Shown piece after piece: positions 12,445-22,611 of a stretch of DNA of 64,000 nucleotides. This DNA comes from Planctomyces sp. SH-PL62 (GTDB lineage Bacteria > Planctomycetota > Planctomycetia > Isosphaerales > Isosphaeraceae). Under the pieces are notes generated by a model that ran no database searches, was not told the DNA's origin, and was given only the letters and a program-made list of their open reading frames with translations. Numbering within the stretch: position 1 is the first letter of the stretch; each line of letters starts with the position of its first letter. The DNA lies in the NCBI RefSeq assembly GCF_001610895.1, contig NZ_CP011273.1, forward strand, positions 4,774,001 to 4,838,000. The letters run 5' to 3'. A program made the position numbers and the translations under genes.

Positions 12445-12837
12445 TCAGTTGTCGTAGAACTTGCGAAGCGCCTTGTGGACCACATGGATGACCACGTGGC
12501 GGCTGACCGGCTTCTCCAGCACGCAGAAGGCGTGTTCGGACAGGGCGCGGCGCATCAGGCTCTCGTCGCAGGCGCCGGAGATCAGGATCGCCGGCAGCGC
12601 GGCTCGCATCTGGCGGAAGACCGCCAGGGTCTCCAACCCCGACAACCGGGGCAGGTGCATGTCCAGCAGCGCGATGTGGACGTGATGATCACGGACGATA
12701 TCGATCGCCTCCTCGCCGCTCTCGGCGAGGAACGTGCGATAGCCGTGCGGGATGAGGATGTCGCGGAGGGTTTCGCGAACGCCCGCATCATCGTCCGTGA
12801 TGAGGATCGAGTAATCGTGTACTGCTGATGACGTCAT
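12445..12837 (-). CDS. Single-domain response regulator (CheY-like)
   Basis: A receiver domain only, 130 residues, with no output domain. The acidic pocket is ITDDD (Asp15-17), the phosphoacceptor is Asp59 in LLDMHLP, the switch Ser is in ILISGA, and the conserved Lys is in LEKPV. No histidine kinase or sigma factor is adjacent, so its partner is unknown. It is convergent with the NfeD gene upstream in the window. Such stand-alone receivers act by protein contact or as phosphate shuttles. Confidence 0.93.
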   Translation of the reverse strand: MTSSAVHDYSILITDDDAGVRETLRDILIPHGYRTFLAESGEEAIDIVRDHHVHIALLDMHLPRLSGLETLAVFRQMRAALPAILISGACDESLMRRALSEHAFCVLEKPVSRHVVIHVVHKALRKFYDN

Positions 12838-13043: not shown

Positions 13044-14465
13044 TCAACGCGTCGCCGTGGGCGCAGGTTGGTCGGACGCGGCGGAGGCGGCCTTGGCGAG
13101 CCGCGAGAAGAGGCCCTTGGACTCCCCCCACCGTTTGTCGGGATCGAAAGCGTCGGCGGCGGCGAGTTCGGTCGGGTCCGCCTTGAGTCCGTCGTATCGG
13201 TACGACTCCAGCAGCGCCCCGTCCGCCTGGTGGGCGGTGACGACGACCGGCATCAGGCTGTCGGCGTCGAGATAGACCCGCCAGACTTCCCTGGTGGGCG
13301 TGATCCGCTGGATCAGGTGACATTCTCGATCCACGTCCTTGGGCTTCTGCACGCCTTTATACGTCAGCCTGCCTTCGGCCCCGGTCGGCCGGCCCTGAGA
13401 ATCGACCTGGCTGGCGAGGTTGTTGAAGATCGTGTCGAAGCCCGCCTCGGTGATGGCGTGTCGACTGTTCCGCAGGGCGAGCGGGCTGTCGACGGGGATG
13501 CTCATGCGCGGGATCGGGATCGCCGAGTTGGCGATGTTGACGTGCATCACCCGATCGTTGATCGCGGCCGAGTAGATGACTTCGCGGCCCTTGTTCGCCC
13601 CGTCGGGCCATTCGAGCCGGACGGCCTTGGGCTTGCGACGGATGCTCAGCAGGGCCTTCTCCTCGGGGAGGACCTGATTGCCGACGCGCTCCACGCGGGT
13701 GATCGAGACCTGATAGGTCGACATGGCCTCCAGACGCGCGCGAGCCTCGTCGAGGATCGACTTCAGGGACGGCCCGGCCGCCCCGACCGGAGCCTCCCCG
13801 CCCGGCTTGGCCTGGGCGAGCGCAGGGGGAGGCGACTGGGCCGGGGCTGGCTCGGCGATGGGCTCGGTCGCGAGGTCGTCGGCGACGGCCTCCGGCGGAG
13901 CGGGCGCCAGGTCGGCGGCGGCGAGTTCAGGCGGCGCCGGCGCAAGCTCGGCCGGCGGTTCGACCGGACGAGGCTCGGCCGCGACTGCGGCGGGGGCGGG
14001 GTCGGGAGCGGCGGAGGCCATCAGCGGTCCAGCCGCGCCGTCGGGGTCTCTCAGCACGGGAAGGCTCTCGGGACGTCCCAGCGTGACGCGGACGCTTTCA
14101 TCGGCCGTCCCACGAGACCGTGGGCGTGTCGCGGCGAGCGCCGGGGTCGTCCGACCGTCCGAGGCCGGTTCCCCTTCGTAGCGGCCCTCTGCGCCGGCCT
14201 GGGGCTTCCGGTCGGGACCGGCGGCCAGGGCCTCGGCGTCCTTGACGGCCTTCGATCCAGCCATGCCTTCAGCGTAAAGGTCGTATCCGGGTGCTGAGGG
14301 GGCGCGGGACCATAGCATGCTCGACATCGCCCCCGCGGAGGCCTGCAAGGCCTGGCTGGTCGCGCAGCCGAGCTGCCCGCAGATCGTGGCGGTCGCGGCG
14401 GCCACGATGAGCATCGTTCGTCGTACCGAGATCGTCTGCCGCGCTTCGGCGTTCGCCCAAGTCAT
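13044..14465 (-). CDS. Exported DUF1571-family protein
   Basis: A 473-residue exported protein. A signal-like stretch TMLIVAAATATICGQLGCA sits at about 17-35; the Cys could be a lipid site although the -3 residue (Gln) is not canonical. A long low-complexity region rich in Ala, Pro and Glu (about 100-225, with repeated PAPPE units) links to the C-terminal DUF1571-like domain, which has RARLEAMSTYQVSITRVERV, SIRRKPKAVRLEWPDGANKG and IYSAAINDRVMHVN. The fold again resembles LolA-type lipid-binding proteins, by inference only. GAGGGGG lies 9 bases before the ATG. Followed at 12962-12980 by an AT-rich hairpin that may help end the transcript. Confidence 0.82.
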   Translation of the reverse strand: MTWANAEARQTISVRRTMLIVAAATATICGQLGCATSQALQASAGAMSSMLWSRAPSAPGYDLYAEGMAGSKAVKDAEALAAGPDRKPQAGAEGRYEGEPASDGRTTPALAATRPRSRGTADESVRVTLGRPESLPVLRDPDGAAGPLMASAAPDPAPAAVAAEPRPVEPPAELAPAPPELAAADLAPAPPEAVADDLATEPIAEPAPAQSPPPALAQAKPGGEAPVGAAGPSLKSILDEARARLEAMSTYQVSITRVERVGNQVLPEEKALLSIRRKPKAVRLEWPDGANKGREVIYSAAINDRVMHVNIANSAIPIPRMSIPVDSPLALRNSRHAITEAGFDTIFNNLASQVDSQGRPTGAEGRLTYKGVQKPKDVDRECHLIQRITPTREVWRVYLDADSLMPVVVTAHQADGALLESYRYDGLKADPTELAAADAFDPDKRWGESKGLFSRLAKAASAASDQPAPTATR

Positions 14466-14643: not shown

Positions 14644-16338
14644 TCAGGAGCCGATGGTCGCGGCCATCGGGAACCCGTGGATCGCCTCGACGTCCGGGAT
14701 CAGGTGCGGCTGCTTATACTGTTCGACGGTCCCGCCGCTGCGGGCGAGCCGACGCTTCTGGAAATCGCCCCAGGCTCCGTCCTGGATGCGGATCGTGCGG
14801 ACCGGGCCGAGGCGGAGGCTGTCCCGCTTGGCGGCATACTCCACGTTCAACGTCCGAAGCTGCTCCTCGACCGCCGCGTCGAGCCGCTCAGCGGCCCCGT
14901 CGTCGGGGAGGTCGGAGGTTTCGACGAGCAGCCCGTAGGACGGCGGGTCTCCCCAGATCGGCAGCAGCAGGTACGAACGCAGACGGATGCCGACGGCCCG
15001 TTGCGCCGTCTCGACGGCCGTGATGACCTGGTGCTCGGAGATCTTCTCCCCCGTCAGGCTGGAGAAGTGGGCCCCCTTGTTCAGGAACTCGACGATCGGG
15101 GCCTCGCCGTGGAATCCGACGCAACGCACCAGATCGAAGATGTTGTAGCGGTACAAGCCGCCGGCCGTGGACAGGAGGACGAAATAATTCTTCCCCTCCA
15201 CAAGGTCCGCCGCCTCGATCGTCTGGGGGTCGGCCTTGTCGGCGTCATCCTCGGGGATGAACTCGAAGTAGTGGTGCCGGATGTCGAGCACGCCGGCGGG
15301 GGTGCCGTCCTCGATGGGAATCGTCATCCGCCCCTCGGAGGCGATCAAGCCGACGTCGCGCACCGGCTTCTCGCCGAAGAATTCAGGATAGCCGCGCAGG
15401 TACGCCCGCATCGTCCCCCCCATCCAGTTGGAGAGGAACTCCAGATTCGGCCAGTAGTCGCGGGGGAGGAGGCGGCCGGTCTCGCCGACGATCGCCTCCA
15501 GGCGCCGCGCGGCCGCCTTGCGCCGGAACCTCGTCCGGAACTTCAGCTCCTTGCGGACGTCGTCGGGGATGGCCCACTTGGTCGCGAGGGTGCCGTCGTA
15601 CAGGTCGCGGATCAAGGTCTCGCGCTCGCGATCGCCCAGCCGGACCATGTTGAGGATCGTGCTGGGGTTCGCGGCGATGATCGTCCCCAGGTTCTTGGCG
15701 ATCGAGAACCGCAGCGCGACGTAATACTTGGACTCCACGTCCTTGATCCGCGAGCCGCTGGGGGGCATGCAGTAGGTGGTCCGGATCATCCGCGACTGCA
15801 TCGAGGCCGTGAGCCCCGTGATCGCCCCGCAGGGAATGCCGGCGGGCGAATAGCTCTCGCGCCAGTCGCTGGCGATCTGGAGGATGGGACGCAGGCCGTT
15901 TTCGATGATGTCGGGATGGGAATCGAACGCCTGAATGCCCCAGATCAACCAGCCCGCGCGGTAATTCTCCAGGGACTCGCGGGTGACCGGGATGGTCTTC
16001 GGGCGGTTGGTGGTCCCCGAGGTCATGGCGAACATCAGGACGTCCGTCCCCGGCCCGAAGAGCGCGGAGACGTCGCCGTTGCGGACCCGGTCGATGTAGG
16101 GCTCGTGGCGGCTGTAGTCGCCGATCGGGACCTGCCTGCGAAAATCCTCCGGGGTGCGGATCTGGCCGAAGTGGTGGTCGCGGCCGAACGCGCTGTCGGC
16201 GTTGCGGGCGATCCGAGAGAGGAGCAGCTCGCGCTGGACCTTGCGGGCCTGCTTCGTCTGGTCGTGGAACTCGACCGCCAATCGGCGGGCGCGGTTCGCG
16301 ATCCGGCGGCCGACGAGCCGCTTCAGGAACGTGAGCAT
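14644..16338 (-). CDS. GH3-family acyl-adenylating ligase
   Basis: A 564-residue member of the GH3 family, best known from plant enzymes that adenylate a carboxylic acid and join it to an amino acid. The ATP-binding segment FAMTSGTTNRPKTIPVT is at residues 103-119, the second adenylation motif region is FLSNWMGGTMRAYL, and the conserved YRYNIFDLVRCVGF and LTGEKISEHQV motifs complete it. No signal peptide or membrane helix. It is the last gene of a same-strand block with an alpha/beta hydrolase (30 bases upstream), two ketosynthases, an ACP and two dehydratases. I infer that its substrate is an acyl acid made by that block; the acceptor is unknown. Confidence 0.88.
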   Translation of the reverse strand: MLTFLKRLVGRRIANRARRLAVEFHDQTKQARKVQRELLLSRIARNADSAFGRDHHFGQIRTPEDFRRQVPIGDYSRHEPYIDRVRNGDVSALFGPGTDVLMFAMTSGTTNRPKTIPVTRESLENYRAGWLIWGIQAFDSHPDIIENGLRPILQIASDWRESYSPAGIPCGAITGLTASMQSRMIRTTYCMPPSGSRIKDVESKYYVALRFSIAKNLGTIIAANPSTILNMVRLGDRERETLIRDLYDGTLATKWAIPDDVRKELKFRTRFRRKAAARRLEAIVGETGRLLPRDYWPNLEFLSNWMGGTMRAYLRGYPEFFGEKPVRDVGLIASEGRMTIPIEDGTPAGVLDIRHHYFEFIPEDDADKADPQTIEAADLVEGKNYFVLLSTAGGLYRYNIFDLVRCVGFHGEAPIVEFLNKGAHFSSLTGEKISEHQVITAVETAQRAVGIRLRSYLLLPIWGDPPSYGLLVETSDLPDDGAAERLDAAVEEQLRTLNVEYAAKRDSLRLGPVRTIRIQDGAWGDFQKRRLARSGGTVEQYKQPHLIPDVEAIHGFPMAATIGS

Positions 16339-16368: not shown

Positions 16369-17484
16369 TCAGCCGGTCACGGAGGAAGCGATGTTCGTGA
16401 TCAAGCCCGAGGCTTCGGCGCGGCCGTGGACGGCGTCGTACTTGCCGAACTCCGAGGCCGCGATCTCCTCCTCGATCTCGGCCAGGGGCCGCCGAGGAGC
16501 GTGCAGGTCGACGAACTCGCCGAGCCGGCGGGCGTACTCTTCGGGCTCGGTCTCGCGGCAGCGATTATGCTTCGCGTCCGCCACGAACCACTGGCTCCTG
16601 GGCTCGCCCGCCCAGTCGAAAAGCTCATGTGCGATGTCGGTTCCGATATAAACGTCGCGCTCGCCATGGATCTGGAGCCAGGGACGCGGGGAGAGCCGGG
16701 CGACGGCCCGCTCGACGCTGGGATAGGTGCAGTTGCGGGCCCGTTCGGTCCCTCTCCGGGCCACGTCTCCCAGGGTCGCGAAGATGAACCGGGGGACCAG
16801 GGCCAGGAACCACCGGCTGCGGACGTAGATCTCGGCCCAGCGGACGATGTACGCGGTCATCGTGCCCCGAGTGGGGAAGGCGCCGTCGGTGACCACCCCC
16901 CAGACGTCGGGCTCGGCGGCGGCGACGAGCAAGGCGGTGCCGCCCCCCCGGCTCACGCCGAACAGCCCGTAGCCGGAAAGGTCGCGATCCGGCCGCGAGC
17001 GGAGATACGCCAGGGCGGCGCGGAGGTCCTCCACCTCGCGATCGGAGGCGTACTGGAGCGGCTCGTACGACGGGTCGACCGCGCTCGCCCCGTGGCTGCG
17101 GAAGTCGAAGCTGAAGACGTCGAAGCCGCGATCCCTCAGGTGGTCGAGATACGGCGCGTAGCTCCAACGGTCGCTGAGGAACTCGTGACAGTAGACCAGG
17201 ACGCCGACCCGCGAATCGGTGCGAGCCTTGAAGTAGCTCCCCTTGAGCGTCAGGCCGTCGGCCGTCGGGAAGGCGGCGGGTTCCCCGAGGTCTTCGGGGA
17301 CGATCTTCAGGGGCTGGAACACCGGCCGTTCCTGGAAGATCCGGCGGATCACCGGGCAGTACATCCAGGTGGTGTACGCCAGGAAGCCGCCGAAGACCAC
17401 GACCGGAGTGGCCGCCAGGACCGCCAGGACGATGAGAAGCGTTGAGAGGCCGACCACGACTGGGCTCCCGTCGGATTCGTCCAT
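16369..17484 (-). CDS. Membrane-anchored alpha/beta hydrolase
   Basis: A hydrolase of about 371 residues. The N-terminal membrane helix (LSTLLIVLAVLAATPVVVFGG) anchors an alpha/beta-hydrolase domain with the nucleophile elbow GVSRGGG, an oxyanion strand VYCHEFLSDRW, HGERDVYIG supplying the acid, and AKHNRC supplying the His. It could be an esterase, thioesterase or acyltransferase; the sequence does not say which. The start may be the ATG at 17484 or an in-frame GTG at 17493; neither has a strong ribosome site. It sits between the ketosynthase KS-alpha (79 bases upstream) and the GH3 gene (30 bases downstream), which suggests a role in releasing or transferring the acyl product. Confidence 0.85.
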   Translation of the reverse strand: MDESDGSPVVVGLSTLLIVLAVLAATPVVVFGGFLAYTTWMYCPVIRRIFQERPVFQPLKIVPEDLGEPAAFPTADGLTLKGSYFKARTDSRVGVLVYCHEFLSDRWSYAPYLDHLRDRGFDVFSFDFRSHGASAVDPSYEPLQYASDREVEDLRAALAYLRSRPDRDLSGYGLFGVSRGGGTALLVAAAEPDVWGVVTDGAFPTRGTMTAYIVRWAEIYVRSRWFLALVPRFIFATLGDVARRGTERARNCTYPSVERAVARLSPRPWLQIHGERDVYIGTDIAHELFDWAGEPRSQWFVADAKHNRCRETEPEEYARRLGEFVDLHAPRRPLAEIEEEIAASEFGKYDAVHGRAEASGLITNIASSVTG

Positions 17485-17563
17485 GCCGTCCACGACCGAC
17501 CCGGGCCCGGCTCGCCACGGAGCGAGACGGACGTCGGGGGCTGGAACGGCTGCGAGACTCCGG

Positions 17564-18850
17564 TCAATCGGTATAGCGTTTGAGGATCAAGGTGATGTTC
17601 TGGCCGCCGAAGCCGAAGCTGTTCGAGAGCGCGACGTCGACCTTCTTCTTCCGCGACTCGTGGGGGATGTAGTCGAGGTCGCAGTCGGCGTCGGGATTGT
17701 CCAGGTTGATCGTGGGGGGGAGGAGGCCGTCGCGGATGGTCAGCAGGCAGACGATGGCCTCGACGCTGCCGGCGGCGGCGATCAGGTGCCCCATCATGCT
17801 CTTGGTGCTGGAGATCGGCACCTTGTATGCGGCGTCCCCGAACGTCTTCTTGATCGCCAGGGTCTCGACCGAGTCGTTGACCGAGGTGCTGGTGCCGTGG
17901 GCGTTGACGTAGTCGACCTGATCGGCCTCCAGGCCCGCCACTTCGAGGGCCTGGCGGAGGCAGGCGATCGCGCCCCGGCCGTCTTCGTGGCTGTCGGTGA
18001 TGCGGAAGGCGTCGGCCGTGGAGCCGTAGCCGACGATCTCGCCGTAGATCTTGGCGCCGCGGGCCTTGGCGTGCTCCAGTTCCTCGAGGACGAGCATGCC
18101 CGCGCCTTCGCCGATGATGAAGCCGTCGCGGTCGCGGTCGAACGGCCGGCTGGCCTTCTCCGGCTCGTCGTTGCGGGTCGAGAGGGCCGTCAGGAGGATG
18201 AAGCCCGTCACGCCGAACGGGTGGATCATGCTGTGGGTCCCGCCGGACAGCATCACGTCGGCGCAATCGTGGCGGATCATCTCGAAGGCCTCGCCGATCG
18301 CCTGCGAGCTGGCCGCGCAGGCGGTCAGGCAGTTCGAATTCGGCCCTCGGGCCCCGAACTTCGCCGCGAGGTGGGCGGCCGGGGTGCCGGGCTCTTGCTC
18401 GGCCTCATGGATCATGTGCAGGTCGTGGACGCCGTACTTCGTGAAATCCTGGGTGGCGACCTTGCCCGATTTCCCGGACTTGTACACCAGCTTCACGAAC
18501 CGCTCGAAGTCCTGCTGGCCTTCGCCCGCGCCAAGGTAGATCCCGAACCGCGTCCGATCGAACTCGTCGCCAGCCTGGGAGAGCCCCGAGTCGTCCATCG
18601 CCATCCGACCGGCCGCCAGCGCGAACCGCGTGTTGCGGGAGTGCTCGCTCCAGCGGTCTCCGTCCTCGATGTAGGAAGACAGGTCGAAGTCCTTCACCTC
18701 GGCCGCGATCCGGGTCGGGAAGGTGTGGGCGTCGAAGAGCGTGATCGGCCCGACGCCGCTCTTCCCCGAAAGGAGCGCGGACCAGGTCGTCTCCACGTCC
18801 CGGCCGACCGGGGTGACCATGCCCATTCCTGTGACAACGACGCGCCGCAT
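17564..18850 (-). CDS. Beta-ketoacyl-ACP synthase, FabF-like, catalytically intact (KS-alpha)
   Basis: A 428-residue condensing enzyme that joins malonyl-ACP to an acyl chain. The catalytic triad is complete: Cys178 in LTACAASS, His318 in NAHGTSTSVND, and Lys350/His355 in STKSMMGHLIAAAG. The C-terminal GFGGQN motif is present. Length matches FabF (about 410). GGGAAG precedes the ATG. It is 73 bases downstream of a second, altered ketosynthase, an arrangement like the KS-alpha/KS-beta pairs of type II polyketide and aryl-polyene systems. Whether it is the cell's main FabF cannot be decided from this window. Confidence 0.94.
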   Translation of the reverse strand: MRRVVVTGMGMVTPVGRDVETTWSALLSGKSGVGPITLFDAHTFPTRIAAEVKDFDLSSYIEDGDRWSEHSRNTRFALAAGRMAMDDSGLSQAGDEFDRTRFGIYLGAGEGQQDFERFVKLVYKSGKSGKVATQDFTKYGVHDLHMIHEAEQEPGTPAAHLAAKFGARGPNSNCLTACAASSQAIGEAFEMIRHDCADVMLSGGTHSMIHPFGVTGFILLTALSTRNDEPEKASRPFDRDRDGFIIGEGAGMLVLEELEHAKARGAKIYGEIVGYGSTADAFRITDSHEDGRGAIACLRQALEVAGLEADQVDYVNAHGTSTSVNDSVETLAIKKTFGDAAYKVPISSTKSMMGHLIAAAGSVEAIVCLLTIRDGLLPPTINLDNPDADCDLDYIPHESRKKKVDVALSNSFGFGGQNITLILKRYTD

Positions 18851-18923: not shown

Positions 18924-20249
18924 TCAGCCGGGAGACCCCGAGGGGGCGCCCCCCCGCACGACGACGGCGGAAGCCTGGCCGTTGACGGTCACGTTGGTGT
19001 TGACGAAGACCGAATTGTCGGTGGGCCGCGGGGCCCCGGTCACGACGTCGATCTTGCAGCCCGGGTCGAGGTCGTCGCAGTTCAGGGTCGGCGGGATCAG
19101 CCCCCGGTTCACCCCGACCAGGCTGGCGATCAGCTCGACCGCCCCGGCCCCGGAGGCGATGTTGCCGAAGAAACCCTTGAGGGCCGATACCGGCACCTTG
19201 CCCGGGCCGAACACCCGCTCGAACGCCCGGGCCTCGGCGAGGTCGCTGACCTTCGAGCCCGAGCCGTGGGCGTTGACGTGGCCGACGGCCCCGGGCTCGA
19301 GACGAGCTTCCCGGAGCGCCGCCTTGATGGCGATCTCGGTGCCGCCGCCGTCCGGGTCCTGGCCGCCGGCGAGGACCGCGTCGCAGCCCGAGCCCGAGCC
19401 GAGGATCTCGCCGTGGATCTTCGCCCCGCGCCGCAGCGCGTGGCCGAGTTCCTCCAGGATCAGGATCCCCGCCCCTTCGCCGGCGAGCGTGCCGTCGCGG
19501 CGGGCGTCGAACGGACGCAGCCCGGCGGCGGGCTCGCCGCTCCAGCGGGACATGGTGTCGTAGAGGGCCATCCGGGTGAGGCTGAGGGGGTGGATCTTCG
19601 AATCCCCGCCGCCGGTGATCATCACGTCGGCCTTGCCGCGGGCGATGATCCGCGCGGCCTCGGCGATCGCCAGGTTCGACGACGCATCGGCCTCGGTGAT
19701 CGTGTTGCTCGGCCCCTGGCAGTCCATCAGGATGGAGATGTGGCAGGCCAGCATGTTGGGCAGGTACTTGAGCAGCCAGATCGGCTCGATCACGCCGATC
19801 CCTTCGCGGCCCCAGACCGGGAACTCGAACTGGCCGGTCGCCGAGGAGGCCAGCGAGATCGCCGGAGCCAGCTCGTCCAGCTCGGTCGAGATCAGGCCGG
19901 CTCCCAGGTCGATCCCGATCCGGGTCGGCTCGACGCCGCCGTCGACCAGGCCGGCGTCGTCCATCGCCCGTTGGGCGGCGGCCACGGCGAGCTGGATGTC
20001 CCGGGCCATGTACTTGCGGCTCTTGCGCAGGGAGGTGCGATACTTCGGCAGGGCGTAGCCCTTGAGGAAGTCGAAATCGCGGATTTCGGCGACGATGTCG
20101 TTGGGCAGCCCCTCGACGGGGAACGCTTCGACGCGTCGCAGCCCCCCCTCGCCGGTCGCGAGCCGCTCCCAGATGCGATCCGGAGCGTCACCCAGAGGTG
20201 TGACGAACCCTAACCCGGTTATGACCACGCGGCGTTCGGAACCAAGCAT
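18924..20249 (-). CDS. Ketosynthase homologue with lost active site (KS-beta or chain-length-factor-like)
   Basis: A 441-residue ketosynthase-fold protein. Aligned with its neighbour, the active-site Cys is replaced by Asp188 (TEADASS against TACAASS) and the second catalytic His by Asn363 (LKGFFGNIASGAG against TKSMMGHLIAAAG), while His328 in NAHGSGSK and Lys358 remain. It should not condense malonyl units by the normal route. In type II polyketide systems such inactive partners dimerise with the active KS and set chain length; decarboxylation of malonyl-ACP is another known role for altered ketosynthases. An unusual insert (about 140-170, WGREGIGVIEPIWLLKYLPN) is otherwise like FabF. The frame is intact, so this is not a decayed gene. 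Confidence 0.9.
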   Translation of the reverse strand: MLGSERRVVITGLGFVTPLGDAPDRIWERLATGEGGLRRVEAFPVEGLPNDIVAEIRDFDFLKGYALPKYRTSLRKSRKYMARDIQLAVAAAQRAMDDAGLVDGGVEPTRIGIDLGAGLISTELDELAPAISLASSATGQFEFPVWGREGIGVIEPIWLLKYLPNMLACHISILMDCQGPSNTITEADASSNLAIAEAARIIARGKADVMITGGGDSKIHPLSLTRMALYDTMSRWSGEPAAGLRPFDARRDGTLAGEGAGILILEELGHALRRGAKIHGEILGSGSGCDAVLAGGQDPDGGGTEIAIKAALREARLEPGAVGHVNAHGSGSKVSDLAEARAFERVFGPGKVPVSALKGFFGNIASGAGAVELIASLVGVNRGLIPPTLNCDDLDPGCKIDVVTGAPRPTDNSVFVNTNVTVNGQASAVVVRGGAPSGSPG

Positions 20250-20426: not shown

Positions 20427-20972
20427 TCAAGGGGCGGGCGGCGTCGCCGAGGGCTCGCCGTTGACCTCGTGCTCGACGGCCTTGCCGTCGAGTTCCTTGG
20501 CCCGTTGCTGCGCCTTGGCGAGGTCGAGCACGCCCAAGAGCTGTTGCGTGAACACGAAATTCTTGGGGCCGAAGATCTGGTTGGCCCGGGTGTTGTCCAG
20601 GTGGGCGAAGACGATCTCGGCGTCCGCGAGCAGGTCCGTCCCCAGGAACGCCTTGGCGTCGACCACCGCGCCCTCCGAACGGAGATCGGTCAGCGTCACC
20701 TCATAGATGAGCTGATCTCCGGCGCAGGCCACGCCGAAGAACTCGGCCCGGGGGATCTTGGCGAGCACCACCTTCTCGGTGAAGCCGCCGGCCTCCCCCA
20801 CGAGGATCCCGCCGGTCTGGGCCAGGCCCTCGATGATGAGCGACGCCGGCATGACCGGATAGCCCGGGAAGTGGTCGTGCAGGTGCTCTTCGGCGAGGGT
20901 CAGGTTCTTGATCGCTCGCGCGAACTGACCGCTCCGGAACTCCACGAACTTGTCGATCCAGATCCATCGCAT
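20427..20972 (-). CDS. FabZ-like hotdog-fold 3-hydroxyacyl-ACP dehydratase
   Basis: A 181-residue hotdog protein. The FabZ signature is present as HDHFPGYPVMPASL with the catalytic His, followed by EGLAQTGG with the catalytic Glu. About 30 residues longer than FabZ, with a charged tail (LDLAKAQQRAKELDGK). It lies between the ACP gene (163 bases upstream) and KS-beta (177 bases downstream). It shares RAIKNLTLAEE with the second hotdog gene (HAIKNLSLAEE), so the two look like diverged duplicates. Each could act on a different chain length or they may form a heteromer. Confidence 0.9.
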   Translation of the reverse strand: MRWIWIDKFVEFRSGQFARAIKNLTLAEEHLHDHFPGYPVMPASLIIEGLAQTGGILVGEAGGFTEKVVLAKIPRAEFFGVACAGDQLIYEVTLTDLRSEGAVVDAKAFLGTDLLADAEIVFAHLDNTRANQIFGPKNFVFTQQLLGVLDLAKAQQRAKELDGKAVEHEVNGEPSATPPAP

Positions 20973-21135: not shown

Positions 21136-21519
21136 TCAGGAGCCGAGCTTGCTCTGGACGTACTGCACCAGCATGTCGACCGTGTACAGGTCGCCCAGCT
21201 TCTCGACGTCGGGGTCGGCCTCCAGCTTCGAAAGGTCGGCGAACGGCAGGCGGGCCTTCAGCTCCGCGACGCCCTTCGACGTCAGCCGGCCGTCGGCGAT
21301 CCATTCGGGATCGGCCAGGTTCTCCGGGAACAGCTCGCCCCGGGGGATCTTGATGCCGAAGTTCCGCTCGAGGCGGAAGACGATGTCCAGGAAGTCGATC
21401 GACTCGGCACCCAGATCGCCCTGCAGCGTGGACTCGCGGGAGACTTCCTCCTCGTCCACCCCCAGCGCGTCGACCAGGGTGGACTGGACCTTCTCGAAGA
21501 TTTCTTCGTATGCGGGCAT
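21136..21519 (-). CDS. Acyl carrier protein, elongated
   Basis: A 127-residue carrier protein. The phosphopantetheine site is Ser40 in DLGAESIDFLD. The ATG at 21519 follows GAGGATGAC, a good ribosome site; the open frame further upstream is ignored. Ordinary ACPs are 75-85 residues. Here an extra segment of about 40 residues lies between the ACP helix II and the last helix (GELFPENLADPEW then KARLPFADLSKLEADP). The first 50 residues are acidic as expected. It lies inside the ketosynthase block and is probably the dedicated carrier of that pathway. Confidence 0.9.
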   Translation of the reverse strand: MPAYEEIFEKVQSTLVDALGVDEEEVSRESTLQGDLGAESIDFLDIVFRLERNFGIKIPRGELFPENLADPEWIADGRLTSKGVAELKARLPFADLSKLEADPDVEKLGDLYTVDMLVQYVQSKLGS

Positions 21520-21727
21520 GTCATCCTCAGGAATAAGGGGGAACACGGGCTCGCACTCGATCCACGGCGAATCGGGGACGCGGTCGGGCCTTCGATCAAG
21601 TCGGCTCACTTAATCGTCGGCGAGATCGAGCGGCGAACTTCAGGGGGGGTGGGTCGCAAGGTGGAAGCCCGATTCGCTTGGGGGGGCCTTCCCGGATCCT
21701 TCGGCCGGAATCCGAGAGTCGCGTCCG

Positions 21728-21901: not shown

Positions 21902-22429
21902 TCAGACCAGCTTCGCCGCCGCCGGCTCGGGCGTCCGGGCGATGGCGCGAGCGCCCACCGAGCCCTTCCGCAGAGTGGCGTAGAGGTCCCGAAGCCCGGC
22001 GACGATCTGGGCGTCGGTGTTGTGCAGGAGCGGATTCTTCTCCCGCAGGTTGTACCGGGTGAGGATGATCCGGCCCTTCACCATCTCCTGCCCGTCGATG
22101 ACCCCGACCCCCTTGAACGTGGCGTTCTGGCCGACGTCGGAGACCAGGTCCACCTTGAGTTCGAGCTGGCGGCCCGGCTCGACGAAGCTGCCGTACTTGA
22201 TGGTCTTGGCCTGCTTCAGCACGATGATGCTGTGGGCGAAGTCTTCCATGTCCCGGATCAGCCACGCTCCGGCCTGCGTCAGGGCCTCCAGCATCAGCAC
22301 CCCGGGCATGACCGGAAATCCCGGGAAGTGGTCGGCGAGGTATTCCTCGGCGAGCGAAAGATTCTTGATGGCGTGCAGCGAACGCCCGGGCTGGACGTCG
22401 AGGATGCGATCGATCAGGACGAAACGCAT
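21902..22429 (-). CDS. FabZ-like hotdog-fold 3-hydroxyacyl-ACP dehydratase (first gene of block)
   Basis: A 175-residue hotdog protein starting at the ATG at 22429, which has GGGAG five bases before it. The catalytic His and Glu are in DHFPGFPVMPGVLMLEALTQAG, closer to canonical FabZ than its sister at 20427. The C-terminal tail of about 35 residues (after NPLLHNTDAQIV) is extra. It heads the same-strand block and has its own promoter candidate at 22612-22639. Confidence 0.9.
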   Translation of the reverse strand: MRFVLIDRILDVQPGRSLHAIKNLSLAEEYLADHFPGFPVMPGVLMLEALTQAGAWLIRDMEDFAHSIIVLKQAKTIKYGSFVEPGRQLELKVDLVSDVGQNATFKGVGVIDGQEMVKGRIILTRYNLREKNPLLHNTDAQIVAGLRDLYATLRKGSVGARAIARTPEPAAAKLV

Positions 22430-22611
22430 GGATGCTCCCGAATTCAAGAAGGCGGAGACTCAAGGGGGCTCGACTCTCGAGCCGTCCGGGACCGGGGCGT
22501 CGGGGAAGTCCGCGAGCGACGATCCCTCATCTTATCGCCGGGAGGGAGGCCGATTCAAGGACCGGTCCGTAGGCCCTTGGCGCGACCGCTGGACGTAACT
22601 CGTTCGAGAGA

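Follow-up and report, generated by a model that had tools for sequence, protein, structure and literature searches.

Heterodimers of a ketosynthase (KS) and a chain-length factor (CLF) are known, and the KSα/KSβ pair analysed here is probably a planctomycete variant of them. In textbook CLFs, Gln replaces the active-site Cys. Like KSα/KSβ, the KS–CLF of type II polyketide synthases (PKS) (actinorhodin, PDB 1tqy; Iga11–Iga12, 6kxd; ApeO–ApeC, 6qsp) consists of two KS-fold subunits, one of them Cys-less; in Iga11–Iga12, contacts with the acyl carrier protein (ACP) are made mainly by the CLF (PMC8358021). The exchange of Cys for Asp or Glu in planctomycete FabF-like KS has been known since 2009, when Rattray et al. 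tabulated Asp163 and Glu163 in the Rhodopirellula baltica paralogues NP_865682 and NP_866153 (PMC2649909 Table 2), a study of ladderanes in which these proteins figure as odd paralogues, each on its own. The ladderane clusters of anammox bacteria likewise hold a Cys-less KS beside a Cys-bearing KS, together with an ACP and FabZ (PMC4790861). Within the limited coverage of the open-access literature searched, neither the pairing nor the operon or docking asymmetry reported below was found to have been described outside anammox, and the phylum-wide KSβ/KSα pairing with its carrier-protein docking pattern appears to be previously undescribed.

The window analysed in this study is a stretch of 64,000 nucleotides from Planctomyces sp. 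SH-PL62, an Isosphaeraceae relative of Paludisphaera. Its minus strand carries the gene order FabZ1–ACP–FabZ2–KSβ–KSα–α/β-hydrolase–GH3, and the same order was found in the Isosphaeraceae loci read. FabZ1 (positions 21902–22447, HFPGFPVMP motif) and FabZ2 (20427–20972, HFPGYPVMP motif) are FabA/FabZ-like dehydratases, and the ACP (21136–21609) has a C-terminal extension and a GAESID phosphopantetheine site with the serine present. KSβ (18924–20249) is a FabF-like KS of 441 aa with an ATG start, and KSα (17564–18850), an intact FabF-type KS, lies directly downstream of it. Two further conserved operon members follow, namely, an α/β-hydrolase (16369–17493) with a membrane-like N-terminus and a GVSRGG nucleophile motif, and a GH3-family adenylate-forming enzyme (14644–16338). 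A highly reducing type II PKS cluster combines KS–CLF, ACP and dehydratases with a ketoreductase. No ketoreductase was detected among the operon genes tested in the window; the homologous cluster L051 contains a short-chain dehydrogenase/ketoreductase (SDR/KR), and a ketoreductase-like SDR lies within the FabZ–ACP–FabZ–KS–KS core of family f49. Downstream of the operon, the Isosphaeraceae loci read carry a DUF1571 protein (window positions 13044–14465) and a response regulator (12445–12837), and L051 also has the DUF1571 gene downstream. Compensation by KSβ for a missing FabH was considered and rejected, as FabH was matched in all 11 genomes tested, in nine of them over the cut-off.

The KSβ gene was found in 43 of 45 Isosphaeraceae genomes, and the GH3 gene, at a loose threshold, in 44 of 45. 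The FabZ–ACP–FabZ–KS–KS core also occurs in the planctomycete families f78, f73, f51 and f18 besides f49, and KSβ–KSα adjacency extends to f101–f103. The operon of families f2 to f5 holds KSα only, and their KSβ copies lie elsewhere in the genome; in the f2 genomes searched, KSβ is found away from the FabZ–ACP–FabZ operon, whereas the window KSβ is inside it and paired with KSα. In several Planctomycetia families KSβ does not adjoin KSα, and the partnership is assumed there. As for the last two genes, OlsH/OlsI of Singulisphaera acidiphila (PMC12493201) provide a parallel, a GH3 enzyme and an α/β-hydrolase being adjacent in an Isosphaeraceae operon, as here. The window GH3 is a distant homologue, and its identification as OlsH itself was rejected on a score of 99.2 bits against a cut-off of 620 for NF052613, the model of the lyso-ornithine lipid synthetase OlsH. 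A second, distant GH3 gene, located approximately 34 kb from the window (G000:C1:4739870-4740628), is possibly the true OlsH.

The earlier note on this locus had described a KS with Asp for Cys and Asn for the second His next to an intact KS, and its residue numbering and open reading frame proved exact. KSβ carries Asp188 (GAT) in place of Cys, His328, Lys358 and Asn363 (AAC) in place of the second His, and so lacks the Cys-His-His-Lys set of FabF; Asp188 and Asn363 also set it apart from KSQ decarboxylases, in which Gln replaces Cys and both His are kept. R. baltica NP_866153 has the same set as the window KSβ: it retains His298 and Lys328, and Asn333 takes the place of the second His. KSα retains the complete set Cys178-His318-Lys350-His355 and the GFGG gate. 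In KSβ this gate is gone (Gly399 replaced by Thr, Phe400 variable), an additional change that had escaped the earlier note. Both ketoacyl-synt domains were found in KSβ by Pfam, and phmmer aligned approximately 400 of its residues with solved FabF structures (E down to 3e-64), matching TEADASS to the Cys163 motif, NAHGSG to His303 and LKGFFGN to Lys335/His340. With these motifs in register, the Cys is not located elsewhere in the KSβ fold; such a displaced Cys was what the earlier note had named as fatal to its reading. Against the TIGR03150 fabF equivalog (curated cut-off 493.75), KSα passed with 519.1 bits and KSβ fell below with 309.1 bits. KSβ is closer to FabF than to the KS–CLF subunits of type II PKS; among its best 60 PDB matches, the actinorhodin KS (1tqy_A) was present and the CLF (1tqy_B) absent. 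From the AlphaFold model of KSα (pLDDT 65, pTM 0.76), we took the FabF fold alone (Z 49 to FabF).

The substitutions in KSβ represent neither error nor decay, since the gene is intact and the acid is found in all 30 Isosphaeraceae KSβ read (Asp in 18, Glu in 12), in addition to the retention of the gene across the family. Both KS genes are intact, with a third-position GC of 0.93 in each, and KSβ is 92% identical to its P. soli counterpart. A tree of 80 ketosynthases, computed with the trait columns left out of the alignment, places the acid-site KSβ in a single planctomycete clade of 40 members (SH-aLRT 97), of which 38 carry Asp or Glu at the Cys position rather than the Gln of CLFs, one Ser (L131) and one Gly (L073). 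An Asp/Glu count of 72 of 73 was circular, its rows having been picked by that residue, and the clade-based counts were used instead. Changes between Cys, acid and other residues number six over the whole tree; within the KSβ clade, Asp and Glu were exchanged at least nine times and the acid was lost just twice, indicating that the negative charge, and not Asp itself, is conserved. The second His position was Asn in 27 and Thr in three of the 30 Isosphaeraceae KSβ, and varies among Asn, His, Thr, Ser and Tyr across homologues, so the His-to-Asn change is by itself less meaningful. Free variation among orthologues, raised in the earlier note as an objection, therefore applies to Asn363 and not to Asp188. 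Its view that Asp is unusual at this position stands in relation to textbook CLFs, but not within planctomycetes, where both acids had been tabulated in 2009.

Several other KS loci were observed in the course of these searches. In two f2 loci (L029 and L082), Lys335 of KSβ is replaced by Thr or Ser together with Glu349 by Lys, an apparent Lys–Glu swap by which a positive charge near the site is retained despite the loss of Lys335. In an f2 (Pirellulales-like) locus (L057:4647-10280), a Glu-site KSβ paralogue follows directly after fabF in a plsX–fabD–fabF cluster, and thus lies in the primary FAS locus, beside nusA–infB–rbfA. No KS relatives were found in viral contigs; the two DNA-pattern matches were capsid-like ORFs.

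Structures of FabF–AcpP identified Lys65, Arg68 and Lys69 among the residues that dock ACP, and showed that most ACP contacts come from the KS monomer that is not crosslinked (PMC7138838). At these sites (Ec65/68/69), all 47 slot-1/KSβ sequences had a charge of +1 or +2, and all 21 KSα a charge of 0 to −2, without overlap; the KSα docking residues are acidic, unlike the basic ones of KSβ, although an indel in the docking segment makes the site assignment in KSα less certain. The net charge of the whole docking segment does overlap (+2 to +7 for KSβ, −5 to +3 for KSα), but it is a poor measure, E. coli FabF itself scoring 0, and site-specific charges were used. The window KSβ carries the basic docking residues Lys76 and Lys79, with Pro156 and Trp158 on the pocket side; Pro131 and Trp133 (FabF numbering) are invariant in the slot-1 clade. 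The second docking region of FabF (Arg127, Lys128 and Arg206) is lost in KSβ, a point against the heterodimer reading given below. Glu occupies the pocket site of FabF Ile108 in all 29 KSα counted; this residue, Glu110 in the window KSα, may be comparable to the acidic Asp113 in the Iga11 cavity (PMC8358021).

The same docking polarity was found in the f18 operons, in which both KS subunits have Cys, suggesting that a division of labour can precede Cys loss. The f18 slot-1 KS, together with a paralogue from the window's own genome, form a Cys-intact sister clade (SH-aLRT 99) of the KSβ clade. We infer that the division of labour came before the loss of the nucleophile, while the moderate support (85) of the node joining the two clades and two L132 sequences leaves room for other orders. 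In the window's own genome, a Cys-intact KS that is unlinked and adjoins an aminotransferase (L002:1252-2787 and L043) bears the slot-1 docking signature Lys65, Lys68 and Trp133; a second KSα-like gene (L004/L044) is likewise unlinked.

A similar but weaker docking polarity was observed in the anammox pairs. Two f46 genomes were recognized as anammox, based on KS residue sets (Val, Asn, Lys, Glu, Gln, Arg) that match Kuste3606, with a second set equal to that of Kuste2805 save for the last residue (PMC2649909 Table 2). Their non-canonical KS retain Lys65 and Arg or Lys68, and position 65 is Gly or Ile in the canonical neighbours; the loss of docking residues is partial, as one canonical partner retains Lys68 and Lys69. 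The non-canonical KS matched chain C of PDB 9s5h (E 2e-257), and chain B of 9s5h/9s5i is the FabF-type canonical partner of chain C, a co-occurrence that is not by itself proof of a biological dimer. In the Kuste3606/Kuste2805 type, unlike KSβ, Cys is replaced by Val or Phe, the first His by Asn and the second by Glu. A further difference from anammox ladderane clusters is the absence of radical SAM and phytoene-desaturase-like genes from the members of the window operon. In the 80-KS tree, the non-canonical KS of anammox form a branch separate from the KSβ clade, so the likeness may reflect parallel evolution. A ladderane-like cluster at L132:3686-13936 combines an ACP and several FabZ-like genes with four KS, of which two retain Cys and the other two have Phe or Ala in its place and Asp for His.

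KSβ lies beside an intact KSα in an operon with an ACP, and Cys is lost in KSβ and kept in KSα, as in KS–CLF. From these sequence features, KSβ is likely to be the non-condensing subunit of a putative obligate KSα/KSβ heterodimer for one acyl-chain pathway. The chain-length-factor-like reading gains support from the conserved adjacency, the opposite ACP-docking surfaces and the anammox analogue. By analogy with FabF structures, KSβ would dock ACP on behalf of KSα: the basic docking of KSβ and the acidic docking of KSα, combined with the cross-subunit docking of FabF, suggest that an ACP bound to KSβ supplies the Cys of KSα. Acyl- or malonyl-ACP would dock mainly on the basic helix of KSβ (Lys76 and Lys79), and the phosphopantetheine arm would enter the neighbouring KSα pocket for condensation by Cys178-His318-His355. 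KSβ may shape the acyl pocket, its invariant Trp158 walling the dimer-side end as a chain-length factor would, and Asp188 with His328/Lys358 is probably a buried charge pair that holds the dead site closed. Both dehydratases would work on the operon ACP, with a ketoreductase supplied from elsewhere in the genome. The finished chain might then, speculatively and by analogy with OlsH/OlsI (PMC12493201), be passed to the GH3 enzyme and the α/β-hydrolase, perhaps to give an N-acyl amino-acid type lipid.

The nearly constant acid, first His and Lys exceed what an inert scaffold would need, and this counts against a silent KSβ. One active role would be that of a malonyl-ACP decarboxylase, KSQ/MadA-like in effect, in which Asp188 mimics the Gln of KSQ and His328 and Asn363 form an oxyanion hole as in the Cys-His-Asn KAS III and chalcone synthases; the product would be acetyl-ACP or a carbanion equivalent. 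In KAS III and chalcone synthase, His/Asn pairs do assist decarboxylation, many f2 orphan KSβ retain both His, and KSβ–KSβ homodimers would possess the docking patch. The role is nonetheless unlikely, because the second His position varies, the GFGG oxyanion-hole loop is gone, electrostatic repulsion is expected between an anionic side chain and the malonyl carboxylate, and FabH leaves no priming gap to fill. In a heterodimer, moreover, KSα has no basic docking helix, so that nothing would dock to feed the KSβ pocket.

KSβ could also perform a chemistry of its own with Asp-His-Lys-Asn, such as cyclization, hydrolysis or acyl transfer. AmcF–AmcG of cispentacin synthesis, with the cyclization factor AmcG, indicates that a KS partner is able to gain a chemical role (PMC10698177), and the survival of the charge at position 163 through the Asp/Glu exchanges agrees with such a role. 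However, no product is known, several members have lost the first His (to Gln, Asn, Val or Thr) and others the Lys (to Thr, Ser or Leu), so that no fixed catalytic set survives; we give this reading little probability. We consider it very improbable that KSβ is a relic kept solely to stabilize KSα, with the old active-site residues drifting neutrally. Gate residue Phe400 and the second His do vary, and Gly and Ser each occur at 163 in one clade member, but a drifting relic is hard to reconcile with retention in nearly all family genomes, with invariant Pro131 and Trp133, or with two losses of the acid against at least nine swaps. A further scenario, rather unlikely, is a separate heterodimeric KS lineage of planctomycetes in which two Cys-bearing subunits first divided ACP docking and condensation between them, after which the Cys of the docking subunit became an obligatory acid performing a non-condensing step (decarboxylation or release/cyclization) in the same complex.

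With KSβ read as the non-condensing partner of KSα, the scattered record of odd FabF paralogues becomes a testable family. Acid-site KSβ and docking-depleted KSα are apparently encoded by most of the Planctomycetia genomes searched, and the KS pairs of anammox ladderane clusters are brought into the same frame. A route from FabF to a KS/CLF-type heterodimer is suggested, in which docking asymmetry came first and Cys loss later, and the operon points to a conserved acyl product in Isosphaeraceae.
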